A model generated the notes under the pieces. The model was given only the letters and a program-made list of their open reading frames with translations, was not told the origin of the DNA and searched no databases. 64,000 nucleotides of DNA from Leptospirales bacterium (GTDB taxonomy: Bacteria > Spirochaetota > Leptospiria > Leptospirales > Leptospiraceae): positions 1 through 64,000 of the forward strand of contig JAAFIR010000015.1 in assembly GCA_013297885.1 (NCBI GenBank), given 5' to 3'. How positions within the stretch are numbered: position 1 is the stretch's first letter; every line of letters starts with the position of its first letter. Both the position numbers and the translations under genes were made by a program. This document shows, in pieces, positions 11,026 through 55,467 of the stretch.

Positions 11026-12539
11026 AATTTTTCCTTTTTAAGAGTTTTGTCAACTAGGTAGTATATGAAAAAATAAATCAAAATTATTCCCACAAAAACT
11101 GAAATTGCAATATTCGATTTTTCATCTCCGTTTTGCATTTGTTTTAAATAACCTCTAAATCCATCTTCATCAATTAAATAAGCAATAAAAATAGATAATA
11201 AAAATAATGGTGTGATGTATTTGATTACAAAATTAAATCCAATTGGAAGTTTTATTAGTGAGCCTTTTTCACCTTCTTCTTTTCCAATTTCAGGTCCAAG
11301 TTTCCAACCATAAATTAAAATTTGAATTGTAGATAATGTGAATATCAAAAATGTTCCTACCCAAAAATCAGTATGATCTAGTGCTGTTAAATCTTTATTG
11401 AAATAGACAATAAATAATGTGATAATAAAAGTGAACAAGAATAAAATAGAACTAGATTTTTTTCGTTTTAAATGAAATCCCTCTTCTAAAAAACTAATTC
11501 CTGGTTGAATCATTGTAACTGATGAAGTGATTGCTGCAATAAATAATAGAAAAAACCAAATTCCACCAAAAAAATTTCCCCCAGTCATTTCAGAAAAAAC
11601 AGTTGGTAGTGCAATAAAACCCATACCAAATGTTCCAAACGAAACAATCGAAGCTCCGAGAAATAAAAATCCAACTGGAATTGTAATTAATCCTCCAAAT
11701 ACAACTTCCACAAATTCGTTTAAAGATGCAGCCGAAAGACCAGATAAAATTACATCATCTTTTTTTTCCAAATAACTAGATAGAGTAAGTACAATTCCAA
11801 ATCCAACTGAAAGAGAAAAGAAAATTTGTCCACAAGCAGCAATCCAAACTTTTGGTTTGAGCAAGGCAGACCAATCTGGATTCCACATTCTTCCAAGACC
11901 AGTTGAAATATTATCCAAACTAAAAACTTTAACTAGCATAATTACAGAACAAAATAGCAAAACAGGTACCGCAAACTTTGCAAATTTTTCTAGCCCTTTT
12001 GAAATCCCTTTAAACACCAAATAAAAATTTAATAAATAACATACAAAAACATATGGCAAAATTTTGGAATCAAATGCATCTCCAATATTTTTAGAACCAA
12101 TTATTTTTTGAAAATGAAGTTCAGCAAGTTTTGTGGTTTCAGAAATACTGGAAGCTTTAAAATTCATATTCCCAAAAAAGAAATCCACAGCATAAGCAAG
12201 ACACCATGCCTCAACAAAAACATAATAAGTATAAATCATAATTGGAATTAAAATCGCAAGTGAACTAATAATTCTCAGTGGAATTCCTGACAAAAAATAG
12301 CTAAATACTTTTGGAGAAGAATGTCCTCTTTCACTTGCCATTCTCCCCATTATCCATTCAGATAAACATACTGGTAGACCTAATAATAAAAAGCTGATTA
12401 TGTATGGAATCATAAATGCTCCACCACCAAATTTGGCTGCTTGTCCAGGAAAACGTAAAAAGTTACCAAGACCAATTGCACCACTTGCGACAACTAAAAT
12501 CACTCCAAGTTTACTGCCCCATTTTTCTTTTTCACTCAT
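11022..12539 (-). CDS. sodium:neurotransmitter-symporter (NSS/SLC6) family transporter
   Basis: A LeuT-fold Na+-coupled amino-acid symporter of the cytoplasmic membrane. The N-terminus WGSKLGVILVVASGAIGLGN-FLRFP is the NSS helix-1 signature, with the unwound GxxxGLGN segment that holds Na+ and substrate. About twelve membrane segments follow over 505 residues. The partnership with a MetS-like peptide directly downstream suggests a MetP-like methionine/alanine transporter, which is an inference from context. The gene opens an operon of four overlapping minus-strand genes and is divergent from the PP2C gene 94 bases away. Confidence 0.88.
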   Translation of the reverse strand: MSEKEKWGSKLGVILVVASGAIGLGNFLRFPGQAAKFGGGAFMIPYIISFLLLGLPVCLSEWIMGRMASERGHSSPKVFSYFLSGIPLRIISSLAILIPIMIYTYYVFVEAWCLAYAVDFFFGNMNFKASSISETTKLAELHFQKIIGSKNIGDAFDSKILPYVFVCYLLNFYLVFKGISKGLEKFAKFAVPVLLFCSVIMLVKVFSLDNISTGLGRMWNPDWSALLKPKVWIAACGQIFFSLSVGFGIVLTLSSYLEKKDDVILSGLSAASLNEFVEVVFGGLITIPVGFLFLGASIVSFGTFGMGFIALPTVFSEMTGGNFFGGIWFFLLFIAAITSSVTMIQPGISFLEEGFHLKRKKSSSILFLFTFIITLFIVYFNKDLTALDHTDFWVGTFLIFTLSTIQILIYGWKLGPEIGKEEGEKGSLIKLPIGFNFVIKYITPLFLLSIFIAYLIDEDGFRGYLKQMQNGDEKSNIAISVFVGIILIYFFIYYLVDKTLKKEKL

Positions 12540-43912: not shown

Positions 43913-44353
43913 ATGAATCACCAAGTAGAAATAAATTCTGCAAAATATATATATATTTCTAAAATATTAGAATATGAATTAAACTGTTTAGAGTTTGAAT
44001 TAACTATCGCAAAAGCTTCCGAAATAAAAGAAGAATTAGAAATTGGAAAAATAAACCTTGGTCAAGTTTCAAGAATTATAACAAATGAACATTCTCCAGT
44101 TTACAAAATTACTTTTGATGCATACATTGGATATTCAGTTTTAAATGAAAGTTATATTAATATAACAAATGGTAAATTTACAGGGAGAAATATTCGAATT
44201 TATACAGAATCATTTTTTTTGGATTATATTAAAAAGGATACTTTTGCTACTAAAGATTATCCAGGTGAATTTTTACATTATATGTTTTTAGGTCAAGATC
44301 ATATAATCAATATTGCTTCAAGTAAAGAACCAAATATTCTCAAGATAAAATAA
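43913..44353 (+). CDS. hypothetical protein, beta-rich
   Basis: 146 residues, no signal peptide or membrane segment. Alternating hydrophobic pattern (YKITFDAYIGYSVLNESYIN, GKFTGRNIRIYTESFFLDYI) suggests a small beta domain. The start has AAAGGAATAA about 17 bases upstream, farther than usual. It precedes the PqqD gene by 124 bases and may or may not belong to that locus. Family not recognised. Confidence 0.6.
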   Translation: MNHQVEINSAKYIYISKILEYELNCLEFELTIAKASEIKEELEIGKINLGQVSRIITNEHSPVYKITFDAYIGYSVLNESYINITNGKFTGRNIRIYTESFFLDYIKKDTFATKDYPGEFLHYMFLGQDHIINIASSKEPNILKIK

Positions 44354-44477: not shown

Positions 44478-44717
44478 ATGATGATGGATAAAATTAAAAA
44501 CTTGGCTGTTAGTGATACTGGATTCATTTTTGATCCAAATACTGGGAACACTTTTTTGTTAAATGAAACTGCATTGTTTTTATTTAACCAATTAAAAAGA
44601 AATTTATCAAAAGAAGAAATTTTAAATCTTCTTGAAGAAAATTATCTTGTTGAGAAAGACCAAGCTGAAAGGGACTATTCAGATTTTATGATTCAGCTAA
44701 ATGAATTGGGTTTTTAA
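44478..44717 (+). CDS. PqqD-like protein (RRE fold)
   Basis: 79 residues (three consecutive ATGs; the exact start is uncertain by up to two codons). The order TGFIFDPNTGNTFLLNETAL, FLFNQLKRNLSKEEILNLLE, ...DYSDFMIQLNELGF matches PqqD-type proteins, the winged-helix RiPP-recognition fold that binds a leader peptide. First gene of a nearly gapless plus-strand run; the ATP-grasp ATG follows its stop directly. No PqqE-like radical SAM gene is present, so the role differs from PQQ synthesis. No precursor peptide identified. Confidence 0.78.
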   Translation: MMMDKIKNLAVSDTGFIFDPNTGNTFLLNETALFLFNQLKRNLSKEEILNLLEENYLVEKDQAERDYSDFMIQLNELGF

Positions 44718-45752
44718 ATGACTACTGTAGCAATCACTGGACTTTCTGCAAATGATAGTCCAGCTCCTGGGGTTGGAATTTTACGATGTTTAAAAGAATC
44801 TTCACTTGATTTAAAATTAGTTGGTCTTTGTTATGATGTTTTGGACTCAGGAAATTTTATGGATTTAGTTTCCAATTCTTATTTAGTTCCTTATCCAAGT
44901 GCAGGACCAAATGAACTTTTAGAAAGAATCAAATTCATTTTACAAAAAGAAAAAATTGATATTTTGATTCCTTGTCTTGATTCAGAACTTTCAAATTATA
45001 TAGAATTAAAAGACGAACTTGCTAAACTAGGTATCAAAACTTTTTTACCTTCCAAAGAAGAACTTCATTCTAGAGACAAATCAGTGTTAGGTGAAAAGTT
45101 AAATGATACTGAAATTATTTATCCCGAAACTATGACTGTTTCTGATATACCAAGTTTAAAAACTGCACTTGAAAAAATTTCTTATCCTTGTTTGATAAAA
45201 GGAATTTTTTATGAAGCTTATCTTGCATTTAATTATGAAGATGCAGTTGCTTATTTTTATAGACTTGGTTCAAAATGGGGCTTTCCTGTTCTAGTTCAAA
45301 AATACATCAAAGGGGAAGAATGTAATCTAGTCGGTCTTGTAAAAGATGGATCAGTTATTTCTTCTGTGATGATGAAAAAATTATTTCTCACAGATAAAGG
45401 AAAAGCTTGGGCTGGTGTTACTATTTTAAACGAAGAAGTAATGAGGCTTTCCAAAGAAATTTTTAAAAAATTAAACTGGAACGGTGGTGCTGAATTAGAA
45501 TTTATAATAGAACAAAATACAAAAAAAATTTATCTTTTAGAAATGAATCCTCGTTTTCCGGCTTGGATTTATTTAGCAAAAGCTGCAGGTTTAAATTTAC
45601 CTGAAAATTTAGTAAAATATTTATTAGAAAATAAATTTGATACAAAAAATGATTTTGAAATTGGTAAAGTATTTGTTAGACATTCTTGGGATGAAATTAT
45701 TCCGATGAAGTTTATCGAAAATTTAAGCACAATGGGGCAGAGAGAAAAATGA
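44718..45752 (+). CDS. ATP-grasp family ligase-like enzyme
   Basis: 344 residues with a CarB/PylC-like layout: N-terminal Rossmann-like ITGLSANDSPAPGVGILRCL, DILIPCLDSELSNYIEL (about 73-89), ATP-grasp core SYPCLIKGIFYEAYLAFN (Lys, about 155-172), VLVQKYIKGEECNLVGLVKD (about 193-212) and metal-binding LNWNGGAELEFII...KIYLLEMNPRFPAWIYLAKA. ATP-grasp enzymes join a carboxylate to an amine or thiol via acyl phosphate. The substrate is unknown. Sits between the PqqD-like and PLP-enzyme genes, overlapping the latter by four bases. Confidence 0.85.
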   Translation: MTTVAITGLSANDSPAPGVGILRCLKESSLDLKLVGLCYDVLDSGNFMDLVSNSYLVPYPSAGPNELLERIKFILQKEKIDILIPCLDSELSNYIELKDELAKLGIKTFLPSKEELHSRDKSVLGEKLNDTEIIYPETMTVSDIPSLKTALEKISYPCLIKGIFYEAYLAFNYEDAVAYFYRLGSKWGFPVLVQKYIKGEECNLVGLVKDGSVISSVMMKKLFLTDKGKAWAGVTILNEEVMRLSKEIFKKLNWNGGAELEFIIEQNTKKIYLLEMNPRFPAWIYLAKAAGLNLPENLVKYLLENKFDTKNDFEIGKVFVRHSWDEIIPMKFIENLSTMGQREK

Positions 45753-47074
45753 AAAAAGATTATATAAGACCCACTATCAAAAGACAGTTTATGGGAATGG
45801 CAAATAAATTTGGATCCTTAAATTTGCCTCAAGTGATTTCTGAAATTGACGGACATAAAATTGAAGATTTAATAAAAGGATTTGGCTCACCACTATTTAT
45901 TTTTTCGGAAAATTTAATTCGTAAAAAAATTAAAGAATTTAAAAACGCTTTTGAATCAAGGTATCCAAATTTTCAACCAACTTGGTCCTACAAAACAAAT
46001 TATCTAAATTCTATTTGTAAAATTTTTCACGAAGAAGGTTTTTGGGCTGAAGTAGTTTCTTCATTTGAATACCAAAAAGCTCGTTTAAACGGTGTTAGTG
46101 GAAATAAAATCATTTATAACGGTCCAAGCAAATCTTATGATTCTCTAAAACTTGCAATTATTGAAGGTGCTAAAATTCATATAGATCATCTTGATGAGCT
46201 AAATGATATTTTAAAAATCTCTGCTGAGTTAGAAAAAACAGTTTCAGTTTCCTTAAGAATAAATTTAGATACAGGAACTTTTCCAAATTGGAATCGTTTT
46301 GGTTTTAATTTGGAATCTGGACAAGCTCTTGAAGCAGCTAGAAAAATTTCTCATTCAAACGGCAAATTGAAGTTAATCGGAGTTCATGTTCATATCGGCA
46401 CATTTGTTTTAGAAACAAATGCTTATAAAATTGCAGCAAAAAAAATCTCAGACTTTTATATCACTCTCCGAGATGAATTAAAACAGCCTATGAATTATAT
46501 TGATCTAGGTGGAGGTTATCCTTCGAATAGCAAATTAAAATCTCAATATTTGAATACATCTTATCTAATACCAAATTTTGATACTTATGCAGAAATTATT
46601 TGTAAAGAAATTTATGATGCTTTTTCTCCAGACGAACCTCCAACTTTATTCACTGAATCGGGTAGAGCAATGGTTGATGAAGCAGGATTTTTAGCAAGTT
46701 CAGTTGTGGGAACAAAACTTTTACCAAATGGAAAAAGAGCATATATTATGAATGCAGGTGTAAATCTTTTATATACTTCAACTTGGTATGATTATAAAAT
46801 TTCTATTTTAAAAAATTCTGGATTTGGTTATGAAGACTCGATTCTTTATGGACCACTTTGTATGAATATTGATATTATCCGAGAAAATTGTTTATTACCT
46901 AATTTAGTAAAAGGTGATTCTATTTTAATTCATCCAGTTGGAGCATACAATGTTACCCAGTGGATGCAATTTATTGAAATGAGACCTGCAGTTGTATTAA
47001 TAGACTCGAAGCAAAATGTAAAATTGATTCGTAGAAAAGAAACTGTAGAAGATCTAAATTGCTTTGAATCATGA
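45749..47074 (+). CDS. fold-III PLP enzyme, DAP/ornithine-decarboxylase-like
   Basis: 441 residues. PLP-Lys motif TWSYKTNYL (Lys about 81; YxxKxN), HVHIGTFV (about 215-222), glycine loop DLGGGYPS (about 250-257), FTESGRAMVDEAGFL (phosphate and arginine contacts) and the late YGPLCMNIDIIREN, where a Cys from the partner subunit normally sits. It is therefore probably a catalytic amino-acid decarboxylase. A separate lysA-type housekeeping role cannot be excluded, but the setting with PqqD and ATP-grasp genes points to a specialised pathway. Overlaps both neighbours by four bases (ATGA). Confidence 0.86.
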   Translation: MKKDYIRPTIKRQFMGMANKFGSLNLPQVISEIDGHKIEDLIKGFGSPLFIFSENLIRKKIKEFKNAFESRYPNFQPTWSYKTNYLNSICKIFHEEGFWAEVVSSFEYQKARLNGVSGNKIIYNGPSKSYDSLKLAIIEGAKIHIDHLDELNDILKISAELEKTVSVSLRINLDTGTFPNWNRFGFNLESGQALEAARKISHSNGKLKLIGVHVHIGTFVLETNAYKIAAKKISDFYITLRDELKQPMNYIDLGGGYPSNSKLKSQYLNTSYLIPNFDTYAEIICKEIYDAFSPDEPPTLFTESGRAMVDEAGFLASSVVGTKLLPNGKRAYIMNAGVNLLYTSTWYDYKISILKNSGFGYEDSILYGPLCMNIDIIRENCLLPNLVKGDSILIHPVGAYNVTQWMQFIEMRPAVVLIDSKQNVKLIRRKETVEDLNCFES

Positions 47075-49164
47075 ATAAATTTAATTTTATCAACTGGGTA
47101 ATCAATTCCTATTCCAATTTAATTTTTAGTTCCGATAAAAAAATTGGAATTTGTATTTTACTACTAAGTTTTTTAGATCCACATTCAGGACTACTTGGAC
47201 TTGTTTCAACAATTTTGATTTTATCTTTTGCGATAGTATTTGGTGTTCATGAAGATAGAATTTTAAAAGGACCTTATGGGTTAAATGGTTTATTATTTGG
47301 TCTATCTTTAAATTTATATCATGATATTAATTTAAATTTATTTTTAATTTTAACAATTGGTGTAATTTTACTTTTATTTATTTCCATCTTACAAGAAAAT
47401 ATTTTTGGAATATTTTTTAATCTTCCTGTGCTTTCTTTACCATTTGTTACAACTAGTTTAATTGTTTATTTTGCTCAATTAAATTATTCAGGTTTTGCAA
47501 CTAAAACAATTTTTGTTTTTCCATTAAACCAATACTTTCCTGAATTACCTTCTTGGCTGGAATTTTATTTTAAAAGTCTTGGAGGAGTTTTTTTTCAATC
47601 TAGTCCTTGGGCTGGATTTTTTTTATCCTTATTGATTTTAGTATCAAGTAGAATTTTTTTTCTTTTATCTTTATTTGGATTTTTAATTTCAATTTGGTTT
47701 CATTCTAGTTTAAACGGTTCAAGCTTTCAACTTTTAGAAAATCCAATTGGGTTTAATTTTATTTTAACTTCAATTGCAATTGGAGGGTATTTTATTGTTC
47801 CAAGTGGAGCTAGTTTTGTTTTAGCAATTTTAGCAGCTATTGTAAGTGGAATAATTGCATCTTTTGGAAAAATTTTTCTATTACAATACTATTTGCCTGT
47901 ACTTGCTTTTCCATTTAACATAACTGTGCTATTATTTTTATATGTAACAAAACTTTTACACAATAAAAAGTTGATTCCAATTGATTTTACACCGGGCACA
48001 GCTGAAGAAAATTTGGACTATTATAAAACTAGACTAGAAAGATTTGGTGTTCATGGACTTTATATCAGACTTCCTTTTATGGGAAAATGGAAAGTGAGCC
48101 AAGGTTATTCAGGGGAATATACACATAAAGATAAATGGAAAGAAAGCCTCGATTTTGTTGCAGTAAATAATGAAAATCAAATTCGTAAAAATAAATCAGA
48201 CATAAAAGAAGATTATTTTTGTTTTGGTTTACCTGTTCTAGCAACTTGTTCTGGAAAAGTGGTCAAAGTAATTAATCATTTAGAGGATAATGTTTTAAAT
48301 GAAATTGATGCTCAGAACAATTGGGGCAATTTAGTGTTAATCGAACATAGTTTTTATTTGTATTCACAAGTTTCTCATTTACAAAAAAATTCTATTCTTG
48401 TTAAGGAAGGTGAATATATACAAGCTGGAACAAAACTTGGATTAGTTGGAAATTCTGGTAGAAGTCCTTTTCCTCATTTACACTTACATTTTCAAGGCAC
48501 ACCTGAAATTGGTTCTTCAACTATTCCAATTAGTTTTACACAATATTTAGATGAAACTGATAACCCAAAAATAAAATTTAATTCGATTCCAAATGAAAAT
48601 GATTTTATTTCACACTTAAGTTCTGATTATAATTTAAAAAACTTTTTTAATATAATCCCTGAAGAAAAATACAAAATCTTTTTTATAAAAAATGGAAAAG
48701 AACAAATTGATATTTGGAAAGCAAAACTTGATTTTTGGGGTTATCGTTATTTAGAAGATGAACAAAATAATAGATTATATTTTTCCATTAACCAAGATTT
48801 TTTTTCTTGTATTGATTATATTGGAAAATATGATTCTTCTCTATTTTATTTTTTTCTAAGTAGTTATAGAATTCCATTTAGCAAAATTAATTCTTTATGG
48901 GAAGATAAAATCTCTTATAAATTCTTTTCCAATTTTTATGAAAAATTTTTTAAAGATATAATTCAACCTTTTAGTGATAGATTTTCATTTATTTGGAAAG
49001 CAAAACTTGAAGAAACAGTAGAAGGAACTAAAATTATTTCTAATATTATCAATCATAATGGAGATAGAATTGCGTCTGTTTCCATTTTAGTTTCAATTAA
49101 CTTTCCTGGTGAAATTATTTTGAACGTGAATCAATCCAAATTTTATATAAGGAGTGATGAATGA
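47071..49164 (+). CDS. urea-transporter-like membrane protein fused to an M23 (LytM) domain
   Basis: Residues 1-300 are about ten hydrophobic helices with the urea-transporter pattern GPYGLNGLLFGLSLNLYHDI, LPVLSLPFVTTSLIVYF and the duplicated VLAFPFNITVLLFLY. Residues ~325-490 resemble an M23 peptidase: GKWKVSQGYSGEYTHKDKW, LPVLATCSGKVVKVINH, NLVLIEHS, GNSGRSPFPHLHLHFQ (HxH zinc motif about 466-472). The first zinc site is less regular (THKDKWKESLDF). A further ~200 residues have no assigned fold. Similar UT-M23 fusions exist in other Gram-negatives. Probably a channel with a periplasmic domain; the transported solute need not be urea. Confidence 0.8.
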   Translation: MNKFNFINWVINSYSNLIFSSDKKIGICILLLSFLDPHSGLLGLVSTILILSFAIVFGVHEDRILKGPYGLNGLLFGLSLNLYHDINLNLFLILTIGVILLLFISILQENIFGIFFNLPVLSLPFVTTSLIVYFAQLNYSGFATKTIFVFPLNQYFPELPSWLEFYFKSLGGVFFQSSPWAGFFLSLLILVSSRIFFLLSLFGFLISIWFHSSLNGSSFQLLENPIGFNFILTSIAIGGYFIVPSGASFVLAILAAIVSGIIASFGKIFLLQYYLPVLAFPFNITVLLFLYVTKLLHNKKLIPIDFTPGTAEENLDYYKTRLERFGVHGLYIRLPFMGKWKVSQGYSGEYTHKDKWKESLDFVAVNNENQIRKNKSDIKEDYFCFGLPVLATCSGKVVKVINHLEDNVLNEIDAQNNWGNLVLIEHSFYLYSQVSHLQKNSILVKEGEYIQAGTKLGLVGNSGRSPFPHLHLHFQGTPEIGSSTIPISFTQYLDETDNPKIKFNSIPNENDFISHLSSDYNLKNFFNIIPEEKYKIFFIKNGKEQIDIWKAKLDFWGYRYLEDEQNNRLYFSINQDFFSCIDYIGKYDSSLFYFFLSSYRIPFSKINSLWEDKISYKFFSNFYEKFFKDIIQPFSDRFSFIWKAKLEETVEGTKIISNIINHNGDRIASVSILVSINFPGEIILNVNQSKFYIRSDE

Positions 49165-50684
49165 AAAAAATTTTCTTTTGTATATTTTTATCTTATTCCA
49201 TATTTTCTGAAAACTTAAATGAAGCTTTGGATTTAATCAAATCAGAAAATTATGGGGAAGCAAAACAAGTTCTAGAAAAAATTATTGAAAAAGAAAAAGA
49301 TTTTGTTTATGCTTATACAAATCTAGGTTTTGTCTATTATAAACTTGGTGAATATGATAAATCAATTGAAGCATATAAAAAGTCCTATGAACTAAATCCA
49401 AGCTTTGAATCTAAACATGGTCTGGCTTGGTCTTATTTAGAAAAATTAGATTTTGAAAATGCTAAAAAATTTAGTTTAGAAGCATTAGAAATTTATCCCG
49501 GAAATTATTTAGCCAATTTAGCTTTTATAGAAGCAAATTATCGAAGTAAAAACTACAAAGATGCACTGACTGGTTTTAAGAACATGGAAAAATTTTATGG
49601 AAAGAATGAAGTTTTATCCTATAAAATTGCTGTTTGTGAAAAAGAACTTGGTAATGAAGAAAAATCAAATCAAGTAATTGAAGAAATTTATAATAGCGAA
49701 CCAAAAGATAAAGAAATCCGGTATTTACTTGGACTTAGTCCAAAAGTACCCAGTTACAAATTGAATTTGGACTATGGAAATTTTAGCTTTCAAAAATCAG
49801 ATATAATCGGTAGTGGGTTCAGAAAAGGTGCTGGGTTTGAAATTGAATTAAATGATAGTTTTAAATTTAGTGGAAATTTTCACCAATCCAAATCAGATAA
49901 TAAAACAAATCAAAATGGTATTGAAAATTATTTTTTAAATGAATACAATTTGCTTCAATATTCGCTATATAATTTTAATCCAAGTTTAATCAGTAACTAT
50001 TATGGCTTAATTGGAAATAGATACAACTTATACAACATTGTAAAAGAAAAAGATTTTCAAATAAATTATTTTGATTTAAAAACTGATTTTAAATTTGCAT
50101 TCAACCAAAAATTAAAACTACAATATTTTTCTGCAAATGGAAATAATGAATTTTTAAAAAATGCAAATGCATTCAAATTATCTTATGAATATGGACTTGT
50201 ATATAAATTTGGAATTGGACTTTCATCTATTTATAATCCAAATCATTCTGGTGGACAATTGGATATAAATTTTTATTTCCCATTTTTAAAATATTTTTAT
50301 TCTTTTTCAAATATTAGCTTTCAAAGTTTACAAAAAAAAGAAACTGAATATTTACTAATATCTGCTCTTCCTGTTACAACTGTAAAATACAATTATAAGT
50401 TCAATTACCAGTCCACATATTTTGTTCAAGAAATTGGTTTTAACTCTTCTTATTTTTATTCAGGTTTAGGAATTAAAGTTGGAGAGGCTTTAACTCCAAT
50501 AGTTGGCGATTCATGGATTTATACTCCGTTTAGAATTCAAAATGGTGCATATATTTTTATAGGTAAAAATTTATTTGAAAATTTATCAATGAAATTAGAA
50601 TACTCGAAAGATTCTTGGATTGATTCTCTAGATAAAAAAGTTTATTCTGATTTTACAAAATTCCAGCTCCAAATGAGGTTTTAA
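49161..50684 (+). CDS. TPR protein with C-terminal outer-membrane beta barrel
   Basis: 507 residues: signal peptide (about 1-17, MKKIFFCIFLSYSIFSEN), four to five TPRs (about 18-190, e.g. AYTNLGFVYYKLGEYDKSIE), then ~300 residues of alternating Tyr/Phe-rich strands (LNLDYGNFSFQKSDIIGSGF ...) ending in Phe (LQMRF), the usual C-terminal signal of outer-membrane barrels. The plan resembles YaiO-type proteins. Overlaps the UT-M23 gene (ATGA) and abuts the next TPR gene. Probably the outer-membrane component of this locus. Confidence 0.78.
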   Translation: MKKIFFCIFLSYSIFSENLNEALDLIKSENYGEAKQVLEKIIEKEKDFVYAYTNLGFVYYKLGEYDKSIEAYKKSYELNPSFESKHGLAWSYLEKLDFENAKKFSLEALEIYPGNYLANLAFIEANYRSKNYKDALTGFKNMEKFYGKNEVLSYKIAVCEKELGNEEKSNQVIEEIYNSEPKDKEIRYLLGLSPKVPSYKLNLDYGNFSFQKSDIIGSGFRKGAGFEIELNDSFKFSGNFHQSKSDNKTNQNGIENYFLNEYNLLQYSLYNFNPSLISNYYGLIGNRYNLYNIVKEKDFQINYFDLKTDFKFAFNQKLKLQYFSANGNNEFLKNANAFKLSYEYGLVYKFGIGLSSIYNPNHSGGQLDINFYFPFLKYFYSFSNISFQSLQKKETEYLLISALPVTTVKYNYKFNYQSTYFVQEIGFNSSYFYSGLGIKVGEALTPIVGDSWIYTPFRIQNGAYIFIGKNLFENLSMKLEYSKDSWIDSLDKKVYSDFTKFQLQMRF

Positions 50685-51272
50685 ATGCGTTACATTTTAT
50701 TTTTAGTTTTTTCAATTTCGATTTTTTCAGATGATTTATATGATTCTTATATTTTAGAATCAAAAGGAAAATATGCAGATGCTCTTCAACTTGTGGAAAA
50801 ATTATCGAAGTCTGAATCAAATGAATATCTATATCAAATTCGATCTGCTTGGTTGTCTTATCTAAATGCAGAATATACCAAATCAATAGAATATTATAAA
50901 AAAGCTCAAATACTTACTCCAGATTCGATTGAACCAAAACTTGGTTTGATTAAAGTTTATACAGCACTTGGACAAACTAAAAATGTAGAATCAACTTGTA
51001 AAACAATACTAAAACAGGATCCAAAAAATTATATCGCTAGAACAAATTTAGCATATTCAATTTACCAATTAGGTAATTTTAAAGACGCTAGAAAAATTTA
51101 CGAATCTGTATTAGTAGATTACCCAGCAGATTTAGAAATGATTTTGGGACTTGGTTGGTCTTATTTAAAAGAAGGTGAAAAACAGAAATCAAAAGAAAGT
51201 TTTAATCGTGCTTTGAAAATTTCTCCTCAAAATCCGAGAGCTCAAGAAGGATTATGGTATGCAGGAAAATAA
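50685..51272 (+). CDS. periplasmic TPR protein
   Basis: 195 residues: signal peptide MRYILFLVFSISIFSDD and about four TPR units (YTKSIEYYKKAQILTPDSIE, IARTNLAYSIYQLGNFKDAR, LEMILGLGWSYLKEGEKQKS). The start follows the barrel gene's stop with no gap. It resembles the TPR half of the preceding protein, so it may have arisen by duplication. Likely assists the barrel protein in the periplasm. Confidence 0.8.
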   Translation: MRYILFLVFSISIFSDDLYDSYILESKGKYADALQLVEKLSKSESNEYLYQIRSAWLSYLNAEYTKSIEYYKKAQILTPDSIEPKLGLIKVYTALGQTKNVESTCKTILKQDPKNYIARTNLAYSIYQLGNFKDARKIYESVLVDYPADLEMILGLGWSYLKEGEKQKSKESFNRALKISPQNPRAQEGLWYAGK

Positions 51273-51314: not shown

Positions 51315-52190
51315 ATGCTAGATCAACTTATTACAACCATTAATTGGCAAAATTATCATACTAATCAAAAGAGATATAAAGCTGGGACGTTTATTATAGA
51401 ACAAGATTCACCACCGTCCAGTTTATTTATTTTAGTAAAAGGAATGCTTTATACTTATAGAAATAAAACTCTTATTTCAACTGTAGACAAAGCTGGAGAA
51501 TATTTTGGTGAAGTATCTATTCTATTAAACATTCCACATTCAGCTACAGTAGAAACTGTAGTTGAATCAGAAATCATTGAAATTCCTTTTAAAGATGTTA
51601 CTCCTTTTCTAACGAATAGTCCAATAGTTGCAATTTCTCTTGCAAAAAGTTTGGCAGATAGATTAGTAAATCAAAATGCACAACTAGCAAAAAAAATTGT
51701 TGAACCACTAAAAAATTTGGAAGAACAAAAAAATACTAAAAGTAGAACTAGCATTAAAGATAATTTGGATTTAAATGGTTTAAAAAATCACTACAAAGAA
51801 TTTAGACCAAATGTGGAACTAATTTTACAAGGCAGAAAACCAACAGCACTTTATATTTTAGTAAGTGGAAAAGTAGAAATTATAAAAAATAGCAAAGTAA
51901 TTGCTGTAGAAGATGTTCCTGGATATTATTTTGGAGATGTTTCAGTGTTGAGAGATTCTCCTGCAAATGCAACAGTTAAAACTATTGATAAAACAATTTG
52001 TATTGAAATTCCAATATCGAGAGTTTCAGAATTTTTAACTCACTCACCTGATGTAGCAATTAATATTGCTAGAAAATTAGCTGAAAGAGTATTAACAATT
52101 AATGACGAATTTTTACATCTTCAAGAAGAGTTATCAAGAAAAAATATGTTAAAATTTGTAAAAAATAATTTTAATTTTGAAAATTTTTAA
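51315..52190 (+). CDS. double cyclic-nucleotide-binding-fold protein
   Basis: 291 residues with two cNMP-binding domains (about 8-120 and 160-275): GTFIIEQDSPPSSLFILVKG...EYFGEVSILLNIPHSATVET and NVELILQGRKPTALYILVSG...YYFGDVSVLRDSPANATVKT. No DNA-binding or enzymatic domain. The phosphate-binding cassette normally reads FGE..L...PRxA; the Arg is His in domain 1 and Ala in domain 2, so cAMP affinity may be low or the ligand different. It lies 42 bases after the TPR gene and overlaps the cyclase gene that follows, suggesting it works with the second messenger made there. Confidence 0.85.
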   Translation: MLDQLITTINWQNYHTNQKRYKAGTFIIEQDSPPSSLFILVKGMLYTYRNKTLISTVDKAGEYFGEVSILLNIPHSATVETVVESEIIEIPFKDVTPFLTNSPIVAISLAKSLADRLVNQNAQLAKKIVEPLKNLEEQKNTKSRTSIKDNLDLNGLKNHYKEFRPNVELILQGRKPTALYILVSGKVEIIKNSKVIAVEDVPGYYFGDVSVLRDSPANATVKTIDKTICIEIPISRVSEFLTHSPDVAINIARKLAERVLTINDEFLHLQEELSRKNMLKFVKNNFNFENF

Positions 52191-55100
52191 ATTATTTTTT
52201 CTTTTACCAATTTTTTTTTTCTGTTCAAAATTAGAAAAAAATTCTCTAATTCTAAAAGATGGAATTTTAGATATTCAAAACTGGAGTCCAACTAAAAGTT
52301 CTATACTTAAATTATCTGGAGCTTGGGAGTTTTATCCAAAACAATTTTTAATTCCAGAAGATTTTGAAAATAATAAAACAAATTCAGGTAAACTATTCCA
52401 TAAAGTTAACTCCTCTTGGAATGAAATTCTATTTGAAGAAAAAAAACTTGGTTCTGAAGCTTTTGGAACATATAGATTGATAATTTTAACAAAAAAAGAT
52501 TATGAAAATAAAGCGATTTATTTTGCATCTTTTTCAACTGCTAGTAGAATCTGGTTAAATGGGAAAGGAATTTTTGCTTCTGGGAAAGTTTCTAGGGAAG
52601 CAAAAGACCATATCCCAAGTTATAAAAATGGATTTTTTCATTTTCCTGTTGATAAAGAAGAAATAGAAATTATTATACAAGTTTCTAATTTTAATTATCC
52701 CAAAGGTGGAATTGATACTGATATTTTTTTTGGAAATGAAGATGAAATTCAAAGTTTAAGAGACTCGAATCTATTTTCAGATCTATTTTTATTTGGAATT
52801 TTATCTGCTTTATCAGTTTACAATTTAGTAATTTATTTAATTAGAAGAAAAGACAAACAAGCACTTTATTTTGCAATATTTTGTTTTATTTCATCTTTAA
52901 ATATAGGCACACAAAGAGAAAAAATTTTTTCCGAATTTTTTAATCTTTCTTGGTTAATGAATTTAAAATTATTCTATTTAAGTTTTAACTTTGTTGCTTT
53001 TTCTTTATATCTTTATTCAAAAGAAATGATTCAAATTTTATATGAAAAATTTTTTTCAAAATTATTTTTTACTATTATTCCAATTTCTAGTTTAATTATA
53101 CTATTTACTGGTAGTAGTTTTTTTCCGTTAATTTTTGAGCCATTTCTGTTTTTCCAAACAACTCTCGGTGTTTTAGTATTCTTTTTTATGATAACAACTT
53201 TTCTAAAAACAAAATCAAAAGATGATTTTTTATTTATAATATCTTACTCAGTTCTTTTTTTATTTTATTCATATGAACAGTTTCAACGAGATTTTGAAGT
53301 GCAAATTGAAAATCTTCCTCCAATGGGATTGATTTTTTTTAGTTTTGTTCAGGCAATTTTATTAGCTAAAAAATTTTCAAAAGGTTTCCAACTTTCTGAA
53401 AAGTTATCTGAAGAATTAGAACACCAGAATGAAAAACTAAAAAACTTAGATAAATTAAAAGATGAATTTTTATCTAATACCTCCCATGAATTAAAAACAC
53501 CACTTCATGGTATCATTGGAATTACTGAATCATTAATCGATGGAGTTTCTGGAAATTTAAATCATGAAGCAAAAAAAAATCTTTCATTAATTTTGATGAG
53601 TGGAAAAAGGTTAAACAATTTAATTAATGATATATTAGATTTTTCCAAACTTAAAAATCATGATTTGAATATAAAAAAACAATCTTTAGATTTAAAAATG
53701 ATTTTGGAGATGGTTATCACATTATTAAATCCTCTAGCTAAACAAAAAAATTTAATTATCGAATCAAATATTTCTGAAATAAAAGTTCTTGGTGATGAAG
53801 ATAGAATACAACAAATATTTCTAAATTTAATAGGAAATTCAATCAAATTTACAGATGAAGGAAAAATTTCCATTCAAGCTGAAATCAAAAATGATATAGT
53901 CCAAATTCAAGTCAAAGATACTGGAATTGGAATCCCAAAAGAAAAATTAGAAACAATTTTTTTATCTTTTGAACAAGTGGATTCTTCAATTTCAAGAATT
54001 TATGGTGGAACTGGAATTGGTTTGTCTATAGTAAAAAAATTAGTAGAGCTTCATGGTGGAAAAGTTTGGGCTGAATCTGAAGAAGAAAAAGGAACATCTA
54101 TTTTTTTTACTTTAACTTTATCAAATTTGAAAGAAGTGGAAAATAACCCAGAAATAAAAGAAAAATTAATTACTTCTGAACAAGATACATTAGTTTTATC
54201 TAATGAAGCAAAAGAAATTAGTATTCCTCAACCAAATAGAATTAGAATTTTAATTGTGGATGATGAGCCAATTAACTTACAAATTTTAGAAAACCAATTA
54301 TCAATTAATAATTACGAAATTTTTAGATCAATTAACGGAGAAGAAGTAATTGATTTAATTAAAAATAAAAAAATTATTCCTGATTTAATTTTACTCGATG
54401 TTATGATGCCTAAGCTTTCTGGGTATGAAACTTGTAAGATCATTCGAGAAGAATTTTCAGAATCTGAACTACCCATTTTGATGCTTACTGCAAAAAATAG
54501 ACTACAAGATTTAATTGAAGGTTTTTCATCAGGAGCAAATGATTATTTAGCAAAACCATTTTCAAAAGATGAATTACTAACTAGAATTAAATCTCATCTA
54601 AATTTATTAAAAACAAATCGTTCAACAAGAAGATTTTTTCCGAATGAGTATTTAGAATTTTTATCTAAAGAAAGTATTTTAGATATTGAACTGGGAGATC
54701 ATATTAGTAAAGAAATGACTGTGATGTTTTCAGATATTAGATCATTTACAACTATTTCAGAACAAATGACTCCTAAAGAAAATTTCGATTTTGTAAATTC
54801 TTATCTTTCAGAGATGAGTCCAGTTATTCAAAAAAATCAAGGGATTATTGTTAAATTTCTTGGTGATGGTTTTATGGCTTTGTTTCCAAATCAATCTATT
54901 GATGCAATTCTAGCAGCACAGGATTTACAAGTTGCACTTGAAAATTATAATTCCAAAAGAATTTTAGAAAATAAAATTCCAATTCAAGTTGGAATCGGAA
55001 TTCATTATGGAAAAATGATGATGGGACTTGTAGGGAATTCATCTAGGCTTCAAGGTGATGCATTCTCAGATTCTGTAAATTTGGCTGCAAGAGTGGAAAG

Positions 55101-55467
55101 TTTAACAAAACAATATAATGCATCAGTAATTATTACTGAAGATGTAAAAAAAAATATTAGAGAAGAATACCAAACTAGATATTTAGATTATGTAATTGTA
55201 AAAGGAAAAACGGCACCAGTAAAATTATTTGAACTTTTAAATTTAGAAATTGATTTCTTAAAACTGAATTATTTAGAAAATTACAAAGAAGCAGTTTATG
55301 CTTTTTACCAAACTGAATTCATTGAATCCAAAAAATTGTTTTTAGAAATTTCAAAATTAAATCCCGATGATAAAGCAGTTCAAAATTTCCTAAATCGAAT
55401 TAATATTTTTGAAAAAGAAGGCATCCCAGAAAACTGGGATGGAAGAAATTTGATGACTGAGAAATAA
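52177..55467 (+). CDS. 7TM-DISM hybrid histidine kinase-receiver-class III cyclase
   Basis: 1096 residues in order: lipobox-like signal peptide (LLPIFFFCSK), periplasmic DISMED2-type domain (about 30-190), seven-helix block (about 200-400), coiled coil, HisKA FLSNTSHELKTPLHGIIGI (His about 436), ATPase (N-box LIGNSIKF, G1 VKDTGIGIP, G2 YGGTGIGLSIVKKL), receiver (ILIVDDEPIN, phospho-Asp in LLDVMMPKLSG, Lys in YLAKPFS), then a cyclase domain with VMFSDIRSFTTISEQM, IIVKFLGDGFMALF and SDSVNLAARVES, all key residues present. Start TTG 52177 overlaps the cNMP-binding gene by 14 bases. Suggests ligand-controlled phosphorylation gating of cyclic nucleotide synthesis. Confidence 0.9.
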   Translation: MKIFKLFFLLPIFFFCSKLEKNSLILKDGILDIQNWSPTKSSILKLSGAWEFYPKQFLIPEDFENNKTNSGKLFHKVNSSWNEILFEEKKLGSEAFGTYRLIILTKKDYENKAIYFASFSTASRIWLNGKGIFASGKVSREAKDHIPSYKNGFFHFPVDKEEIEIIIQVSNFNYPKGGIDTDIFFGNEDEIQSLRDSNLFSDLFLFGILSALSVYNLVIYLIRRKDKQALYFAIFCFISSLNIGTQREKIFSEFFNLSWLMNLKLFYLSFNFVAFSLYLYSKEMIQILYEKFFSKLFFTIIPISSLIILFTGSSFFPLIFEPFLFFQTTLGVLVFFFMITTFLKTKSKDDFLFIISYSVLFLFYSYEQFQRDFEVQIENLPPMGLIFFSFVQAILLAKKFSKGFQLSEKLSEELEHQNEKLKNLDKLKDEFLSNTSHELKTPLHGIIGITESLIDGVSGNLNHEAKKNLSLILMSGKRLNNLINDILDFSKLKNHDLNIKKQSLDLKMILEMVITLLNPLAKQKNLIIESNISEIKVLGDEDRIQQIFLNLIGNSIKFTDEGKISIQAEIKNDIVQIQVKDTGIGIPKEKLETIFLSFEQVDSSISRIYGGTGIGLSIVKKLVELHGGKVWAESEEEKGTSIFFTLTLSNLKEVENNPEIKEKLITSEQDTLVLSNEAKEISIPQPNRIRILIVDDEPINLQILENQLSINNYEIFRSINGEEVIDLIKNKKIIPDLILLDVMMPKLSGYETCKIIREEFSESELPILMLTAKNRLQDLIEGFSSGANDYLAKPFSKDELLTRIKSHLNLLKTNRSTRRFFPNEYLEFLSKESILDIELGDHISKEMTVMFSDIRSFTTISEQMTPKENFDFVNSYLSEMSPVIQKNQGIIVKFLGDGFMALFPNQSIDAILAAQDLQVALENYNSKRILENKIPIQVGIGIHYGKMMMGLVGNSSRLQGDAFSDSVNLAARVESLTKQYNASVIITEDVKKNIREEYQTRYLDYVIVKGKTAPVKLFELLNLEIDFLKLNYLENYKEAVYAFYQTEFIESKKLFLEISKLNPDDKAVQNFLNRINIFEKEGIPENWDGRNLMTEK

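Follow-up and report, generated by a model that had tools for sequence, protein, structure and literature searches.

The window, a 64,000-nucleotide stretch from a Leptospirales bacterium (family Leptospiraceae; assembly GCA_013297885.1, contig JAAFIR010000015.1), contains an operon of six contiguous open reading frames (ORFs) on the forward strand at 44478-51272. The genes encode a discrete RiPP recognition element (RRE; RiPP, ribosomally synthesized and post-translationally modified peptide), an ATP-grasp ligase, a fold-III pyridoxal phosphate (PLP) decarboxylase, a urea transporter (UT) domain fused to an M23 peptidase domain, a porin with tetratricopeptide repeats (TPRs) and a secreted TPR protein (Table 1). 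According to the ORF calls, the spacing from gene to gene is a gap of 0, three overlaps of 4 bases each and again a gap of 0. The genome of the window comprises 4.6 Mb in 72 contigs, and the window lies on contig 68. A previous reading of the letters alone (the sequence-only reading) had described six genes with zero or four-base spacing. The ORFs were found at exactly these coordinates, and Pfam matches back the PqqD, ATP-grasp, fold-III decarboxylase, UT, M23 and TPR assignments.

Table 1. Coordinates of the operon, its annotated sites and the two genes that follow it
Feature	Position in the window	Strand	Support
RRE, discrete, PqqD family, lasso B1 type, 79 aa	44478..44717	+	PF05402, 47.9 bits
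RRE Asn29, equivalent of LppB N33	44562..44564	+	invariant in 7/7 operon RREs and TfuB1
RRE Asp66, equivalent of LppB D70	44673..44675	+	invariant in 7/7 operon RREs and TfuB1
ATP-grasp ligase, 344 aa, 'NPRFPAW' subfamily	44718..45752	+	PF15632, 37 bits; PF02655
Fold-III (alanine-racemase-fold) PLP decarboxylase, 441 aa	45749..47074	+	Orn_Arg_deC_N, 111 bits; Orn_DAP_Arg_deC, 45 bits
Decarboxylase N-terminal tail, [Y/W]xRPxI then xxQxMGxANKFG	45749..45832	+	8/8 genomes
Decarboxylase Cys371-Met372	46859..46864	+	alignment with FigC C354-M355; PMC7857480
UT-M23 fusion, 697 aa: UT-fold membrane domain, M23, C-terminal domain	47071..49164	+	PF03253, 168 bits; PF01551, 50 bits
UT domain, urea filter substituted	47089..47949	+	comparison with five stand-alone UTs; PMC4357013
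M23 domain, H352, D361, H436, H471, H473	48067..48570	+	invariant alignment columns
UT-M23 C-terminal domain, weakly LolA/LolB/RseB-like (tentative)	48628..49161	+	AlphaFold, Foldseek
Outer-membrane porin: signal peptide, TPRs, 14-strand beta-barrel	49161..50684	+	AlphaFold, Foldseek
Secreted TPR protein, 195 aa	50685..51272	+	signal-peptide-like start; TPR_19, 66 bits
Protein with two cyclic-nucleotide-binding domains, possible regulator	51315..52190	+	PF00027
Seven-transmembrane histidine kinase - receiver - nucleotide cyclase, possible regulator	52177..55467	+	domain matches

The distribution of the genes was surveyed in 393 Spirochaetota genomes. Strong matches to the RRE, the ATP-grasp ligase and the decarboxylase were found in an identical set of eight genomes. 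UT domains were present in 13: the same eight and five with stand-alone UTs and no ATP-grasp ligase. The chance that two sets of eight genomes coincide at random is 1 in C(393,8), or 7.6e-17, if the genomes are taken as independent; shared descent makes this value less extreme. The order RRE, ATP-grasp, decarboxylase, UT-M23, TPR-barrel, TPR recurs in seven other genomes and is complete wherever the contig permits. The relatives with the full order belong to the same genus, family, order and class (loci L035, L036, L037, L038/L073, L039 and L040); the contig of L037 stops after UT-M23, and the cassette of one genome (G005) is split over two contigs. A genome from another class of the phylum (G139, locus L071) carries the first part of the cassette in the same order until its contig stops within the UT gene, and its ATP-grasp ligase and decarboxylase are 41-49% identical to those of the window. 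The UT-M23 fusion is likewise found in six other genomes. As four genes share the same 8 of 393 genomes and the same order, the cassette is a real co-inherited unit, and the genes do not scatter independently in relatives.

Occurrence is patchy, with one genome of the same genus lacking the cassette. In a ninth genome (G208), the sole relative of the cassette is a diverged ATP-grasp ligase with 26% identity (L072:8837-9949). The cassette-bearing genomes with names are Leptospiraceae and Spirochaetes metagenome-assembled genomes (MAGs). One genome (G002) seemed to have lost M23, but this was rejected because its assembly has a stretch of undetermined bases there. Two UT-M23 peptide patterns were scanned against the GTDB species genomes, a search that more diverged systems escape, and the only matches were the six known relatives and one unrelated M23 protein. 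Viral contigs were searched as well and held no relatives of the operon. The literature searched contained nothing that describes this gene set. The proposal of an undescribed pathway, encoded by a co-inherited operon, is supported.

The first gene had been labelled a leader-binding-type PqqD protein. It is the only PF05402 match in the genome, and the family assignment stands. The label needs correction: in alignments of the operon RREs against the PDB, the best match was 6JX3, the lasso RRE TfuB1 with its leader (E 1.7e-11), followed by TbiB1 (3e-5), while PqqD of pyrroloquinoline quinone (PQQ) biosynthesis reached 0.031. N29 and D66 are separated by 37 residues, as are N33 and D70 of LppB, and both are invariant even in the most distant operon copy. 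A 2026 study of LppB and PbaB1 reported that LppB reads the leader's YxxP motif through N33 and D70: at the proline, N33 keeps the kinked backbone of the leader in place, and D70 forms a hydrogen bond with the leader tyrosine (PMC13381572). Discrete lasso RREs recognize [Y/W]xxPx[L/V/I/F/A] (PMC13381572). Judging from sequence, the operon 'PqqD' is an RRE of the lasso type in which the residues that read YxxP are intact; it is nearer to these RREs than to PQQ PqqD.

A candidate ligand was found in the operon itself. The decarboxylases start with an N-terminal tail that precedes the part alignable with FigC and LysA and is present in neither. Apart from small details, the tail reads [Y/W]xRPxI..QxMGxANKFG, with Tyr in seven genomes and Trp in one; the Trp variant is acceptable because the motif described for lasso RREs allows both. 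In a seven-row alignment, R7, P8, I10, G16, A18, N19, K20, F21 and G22 of the tail are invariant. When nine genomes were searched with the tail, eight of them had one copy each, always on the decarboxylase, and there was no copy in any other place. The motif occurred within the first 40 residues of only 1 of 142 other ORFs.

The sequence-only reading had noted that there is no obvious precursor peptide. Indeed, no precursor peptide gene was found near the operon, and the search with the tail, which an unlinked precursor without the full tail would escape, returned the decarboxylase only. Small ORFs with a YxxPxI...G leader were absent beside the operon in all six loci inspected, so the flank search for conserved short leader peptides came back empty. 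A leader-like sequence does exist, though, on the decarboxylase. With the motif on this tail, rare elsewhere, and no leader ORF nearby, a precursor peptide may not be missing at all. Probably, the RRE binds the decarboxylase of its own pathway.

From this we propose that ATP-grasp ligase and decarboxylase are held together by the RRE; the odds of such docking are about even or a little lower. More tentatively, and with the balance slightly on the negative side, the RRE may dock one enzyme to another in a pathway that is non-ribosomal, with a 'leader' grafted onto the decarboxylase and no peptide delivered. The lasso and LPP systems (TfuB1/FusB1, LppB and PbaB1, with YxxP or WxxP leaders) are alike in RRE sequence, in the motif-reading Asn and Asp and in the motif. 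There, however, the motif sits on a precursor peptide, whereas in the operon it sits on an enzyme, and no leader peptidase, cyclase or kinase accompanies it. Specifically, neither a B2 leader peptidase nor an asparagine-synthetase-like cyclase was found in the operon or its immediate flanks. We know of no earlier case in which the leader of an RRE is carried by an enzyme.

Two other uses of the adaptor have to be weighed. In the first, the operon belongs to a RiPP pathway whose precursor is encoded elsewhere or was left unannotated: a peptide is handed by the RRE to the ATP-grasp ligase, its bound amino acid is the substrate of the decarboxylase, and the tail only allows the decarboxylase to use the same adaptor. 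The RRE is of the precursor-binding type, and the decarboxylase MccE has a peptide-bound group as its substrate, which keeps this idea in play; the lack of a short leader ORF in six loci and of the tail elsewhere in nine genomes (a search that needs the tail, not YxxP alone) makes it unlikely. In the second, the decarboxylase is its own carrier: the RRE presents the tail to the ligase, which adds an amino acid to the protein, and this tail is then the substrate of the enzyme that bears it. The conserved part of the tail does run past YxxP (QxMGxANKFG, with an invariant Lys), like leaders that extend to a core or to a site of contact with the enzyme that modifies them, and carrier-bound substrates are known for BtrK. 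As the tail is N-terminal, however, the ligase would need a side chain such as that of Lys20, and we know of no precedent for a self-carrier of this kind. We consider it very improbable.

The chemistry expected from the enzymes is that of a conjugated amino acid. Both the ATP-grasp ligase (K161, E261, E275 and N277 invariant) and the fold-III decarboxylase (catalytic K82 and C371 invariant in the family) are intact by sequence. The decarboxylase is closest to the N-citrylornithine decarboxylase FigC/FslC (PDB 7KH2, 256 bits, E 4e-75), with diaminopimelate (DAP) decarboxylase at 183; against the NCBIfam FslC model it scored 249 bits, below the cut-off of 500. Next to the catalytic Cys, C371-M372 takes the place of the usual Asp, and the Asp/Arg residues of ornithine (ODC), arginine (ADC) and DAP (DAPDC) decarboxylases are lacking. 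The specificity helix, mapped by hand through the FigC alignment, has the family-conserved residues T343, W346 and Y347 (T/S/T/W/Y), and the DAP-binding Arg was not encountered. In FigC, too, Met replaces the Asp beside the catalytic Cys, and Thr, Thr and Tyr of the helix stand in for the residues to which free basic amino acids or DAP bind (PMC7857480). FigC, SbnH, AcsE, MccE and BtrK are decarboxylases outside polyamine metabolism, and all act on conjugated substrates (PMC7857480). By sequence, the pocket of the operon enzyme resembles those of enzymes that act on side-chain-conjugated amino acids.

With FigC/FslC of the rhizoferrin pathway, its nearest characterized relative, the enzyme shares Cys-Met in place of Cys-Asp and the Thr and Tyr of the specificity helix. 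The citrate-contacting residues H357, R387 and N389 of FigC are I374, Q404 and M406 here, so the acyl group is probably not citrate-like. Moreover, the operon has an ATP-grasp ligase instead of an NRPS-independent siderophore (NIS) synthetase, and its decarboxylase has the added tail. A rhizoferrin-type siderophore was rejected, as the cassette has no NIS synthetase and the citrate-binding residues are replaced.

A housekeeping lysine or polyamine decarboxylase operon is hardly credible. The lysA model does match the enzyme with 206 bits (cut-off 297.9), but the genome has two other fold-III decarboxylases, one a better lysA match and one ODC-like. In addition, the cassette is confined to 8 of the 393 genomes, and the active site has other residues in place of those for free basic amino acids. 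A housekeeping LysA was therefore rejected, and the enzyme is not the only lysA-like protein of the genome.

An ATP-grasp domain (28% identical, E 1e-37) is fused to a fold-III decarboxylase in a plasmid protein of Streptomyces zaomyceticus (WP_327166871.1; L074:8992-11268). No RRE was found in the 18.9 kb read around it and no YxxP motif in its linker. The fusion is adjoined by an uncharacterized partner gene (11265-11852) and a fatty-acid desaturase gene. Because the relatives of the decarboxylase act on conjugates and the two activities are fused in Streptomyces, ligation is likely to precede decarboxylation. By function, BtrI, BtrJ and BtrK, which make the butirosin side chain, are likewise a small protein, a ligase of the ATP-grasp family and a decarboxylase of fold III, with ligation first. 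The small protein of that system is an acyl carrier protein, whereas the cassette has no acyl carrier protein gene; its small protein is the RRE, and the operon adds membrane and porin genes. An amine-type product, as suggested before, is thus supported by the predicted pairing of ligase and decarboxylase, and the predicted locations of the parts in several compartments agree with that suggestion as well.

The UT domain can be aligned over its full length with solved urea channels (template modelling score, TM, 0.84 of target). Four filter positions of the channel dvUT were compared. E187, T130 and T294 are described as filter sites (PMC4357013); the fourth, Q24, was placed by alignment. In the order Q24, E187, T130, T294, the five stand-alone UTs of the phylum have Q, Q/E, T and T. 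The fusions of the Leptospira order have N/S/A, G/A/T, S and A/T/S; the distant partial copy of G139 retains the first Q. Since the filter residues are substituted in the fusions and kept in the stand-alone controls, urea is unlikely to be the substrate. The protein therefore shares the fold of the urea transporters dvUT and UT-B, but differs in the Q/E/T/T filter and in the fused M23 and further domain.

The zinc and catalytic residues of the M23 domain (H352, D361, H436, H471 and H473) are invariant. The fusion had been described as a urea-channel-like protein with a periplasmic M23 domain. Both domains were confirmed, but the periplasmic side could not be established: both termini of the UT fold are cytoplasmic. 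Downstream of the UT domain, there is no hydrophobic segment at a cut-off of 1.6, and in most copies the distribution of positive charge speaks for the canonical orientation. The AlphaFold model of the fusion was weak overall (pLDDT, the predicted local distance difference test, 58.7) and for this reason was not used to place the M23 domain. For the C-terminal domain, pLDDT was about 64-92 in blocks of 10 residues, and the Foldseek matches had E-values of 0.02-0.2 and low TM values; a weak but consistent similarity to the LolA/LolB/RseB folds is suggested tentatively. The order and class commonly have secreted proteins with TPR-like repeats at the N-terminus and an M23 domain at the C-terminus (L012-L016, L019 and L025).

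These secreted TPR-M23 proteins are also the closest M23 relatives in the order (33-40% identical), and together with the conserved active site they speak for a modification of the envelope, in which a periplasmic M23 domain cuts peptidoglycan and the amine product is attached at the cell wall. Against this stand the cytoplasmic UT termini, with which the positive-inside counts agree in most fusions, and the lack of a transpeptidase or other attachment enzyme in the cassette. We regard such a modification as quite unlikely. The attachment at the envelope or peptidoglycan that was proposed earlier could not be established, and the parts fit the export of a small product no less well.

For the fifth gene, the AlphaFold model has ten TPR helices followed by 14 strands (pLDDT 82.6), which bears out the predicted TPR-barrel. 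Foldseek listed BcsC first, then OmpG. A Slam-like identity of the barrel was dismissed, Slam not being among the fold matches listed. By its model, the protein resembles export porins of the BcsC/PgaA type, which also have N-terminal TPRs followed by an outer-membrane barrel. That type has a 16-strand barrel and a linked polysaccharide synthase, whereas here the barrel is predicted with 14 strands, as in OmpG, the TPR part is short and the cassette has no synthase. Relatives of the secreted TPR protein are 37-50% identical.

Taken together, we propose, with a probability of roughly 0.48, that the operon serves the synthesis and export of a small amine conjugate with an RRE-docked decarboxylase. 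The RRE would grip the decarboxylase tail and so bring the decarboxylase to the ATP-grasp ligase. The ligase would couple an amino acid, via its side chain, to a carrier or to an acyl partner, and the decarboxylase would then remove the alpha-carboxylate to give an amine, in the manner of FigC, BtrK and MccE. The membrane protein derived from a UT, which has probably lost its selectivity for urea, would pass the product or a related small molecule, and the TPR proteins and the 14-strand porin would carry the product over the periplasm and outer membrane. M23 may open the peptidoglycan for this conduit or, if cytoplasmic, trim an intermediate. Export of the product has slightly less than an even chance.

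Several points weigh against this proposal, apart from the precursor that would escape the tail search. The motif that matches is short, and the Gly found in lasso leaders lies two residues out of place. The pocket position F70 of the RRE is variable (F/M/A/L). The relatives come mostly from MAGs, and the direction of export was read from the types of parts alone.

The two possible regulator genes come after the operon on the same strand. In two genomes of the same genus, a homologue of the cyclic-nucleotide-binding gene adjoins the operon divergently. A homologue of the kinase-cyclase gene lies directly downstream of the operon in L035 and L040. The regulator homologues beside the operon are rearranged (L035/L042 and L040/L046), and L042 has a gene for an NMT1/THI5-type binding protein, with a similar one in L046. 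That regulator homologues flank the operon in two genomes of the same genus suggests signal-controlled expression. Upstream of the operon copy of G139 are genes for EF-hand proteins and a membrane regulator (L071:3259-5466). Genes for an EF-hand protein and an AraC-like membrane regulator also occur at the diverged ATP-grasp ligase of G208, with no RRE or decarboxylase nearby. In the window, an ORF of 146 aa at 43913-44353, immediately upstream of the operon, had no Pfam or NCBIfam match. Rfam, promoter and terminator scans of the operon region gave nothing above chance.

Every protein family in the operon is already known; to our knowledge, the novelty would lie in an RRE whose leader belongs to an enzyme. 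RREs serve as beacons for RiPP clusters. If the proposal is true, an RRE ligand on a partner enzyme would explain some RRE genes without a precursor peptide and would alter the reading of such 'orphan' clusters. A related enzyme pair is fused in Streptomyces, with no such adaptor nearby. For bacteria of the Leptospira order, the operon leads one to expect a new amine-type metabolite that has a membrane route of its own, and also a urea-channel fold that has been turned to another substrate.

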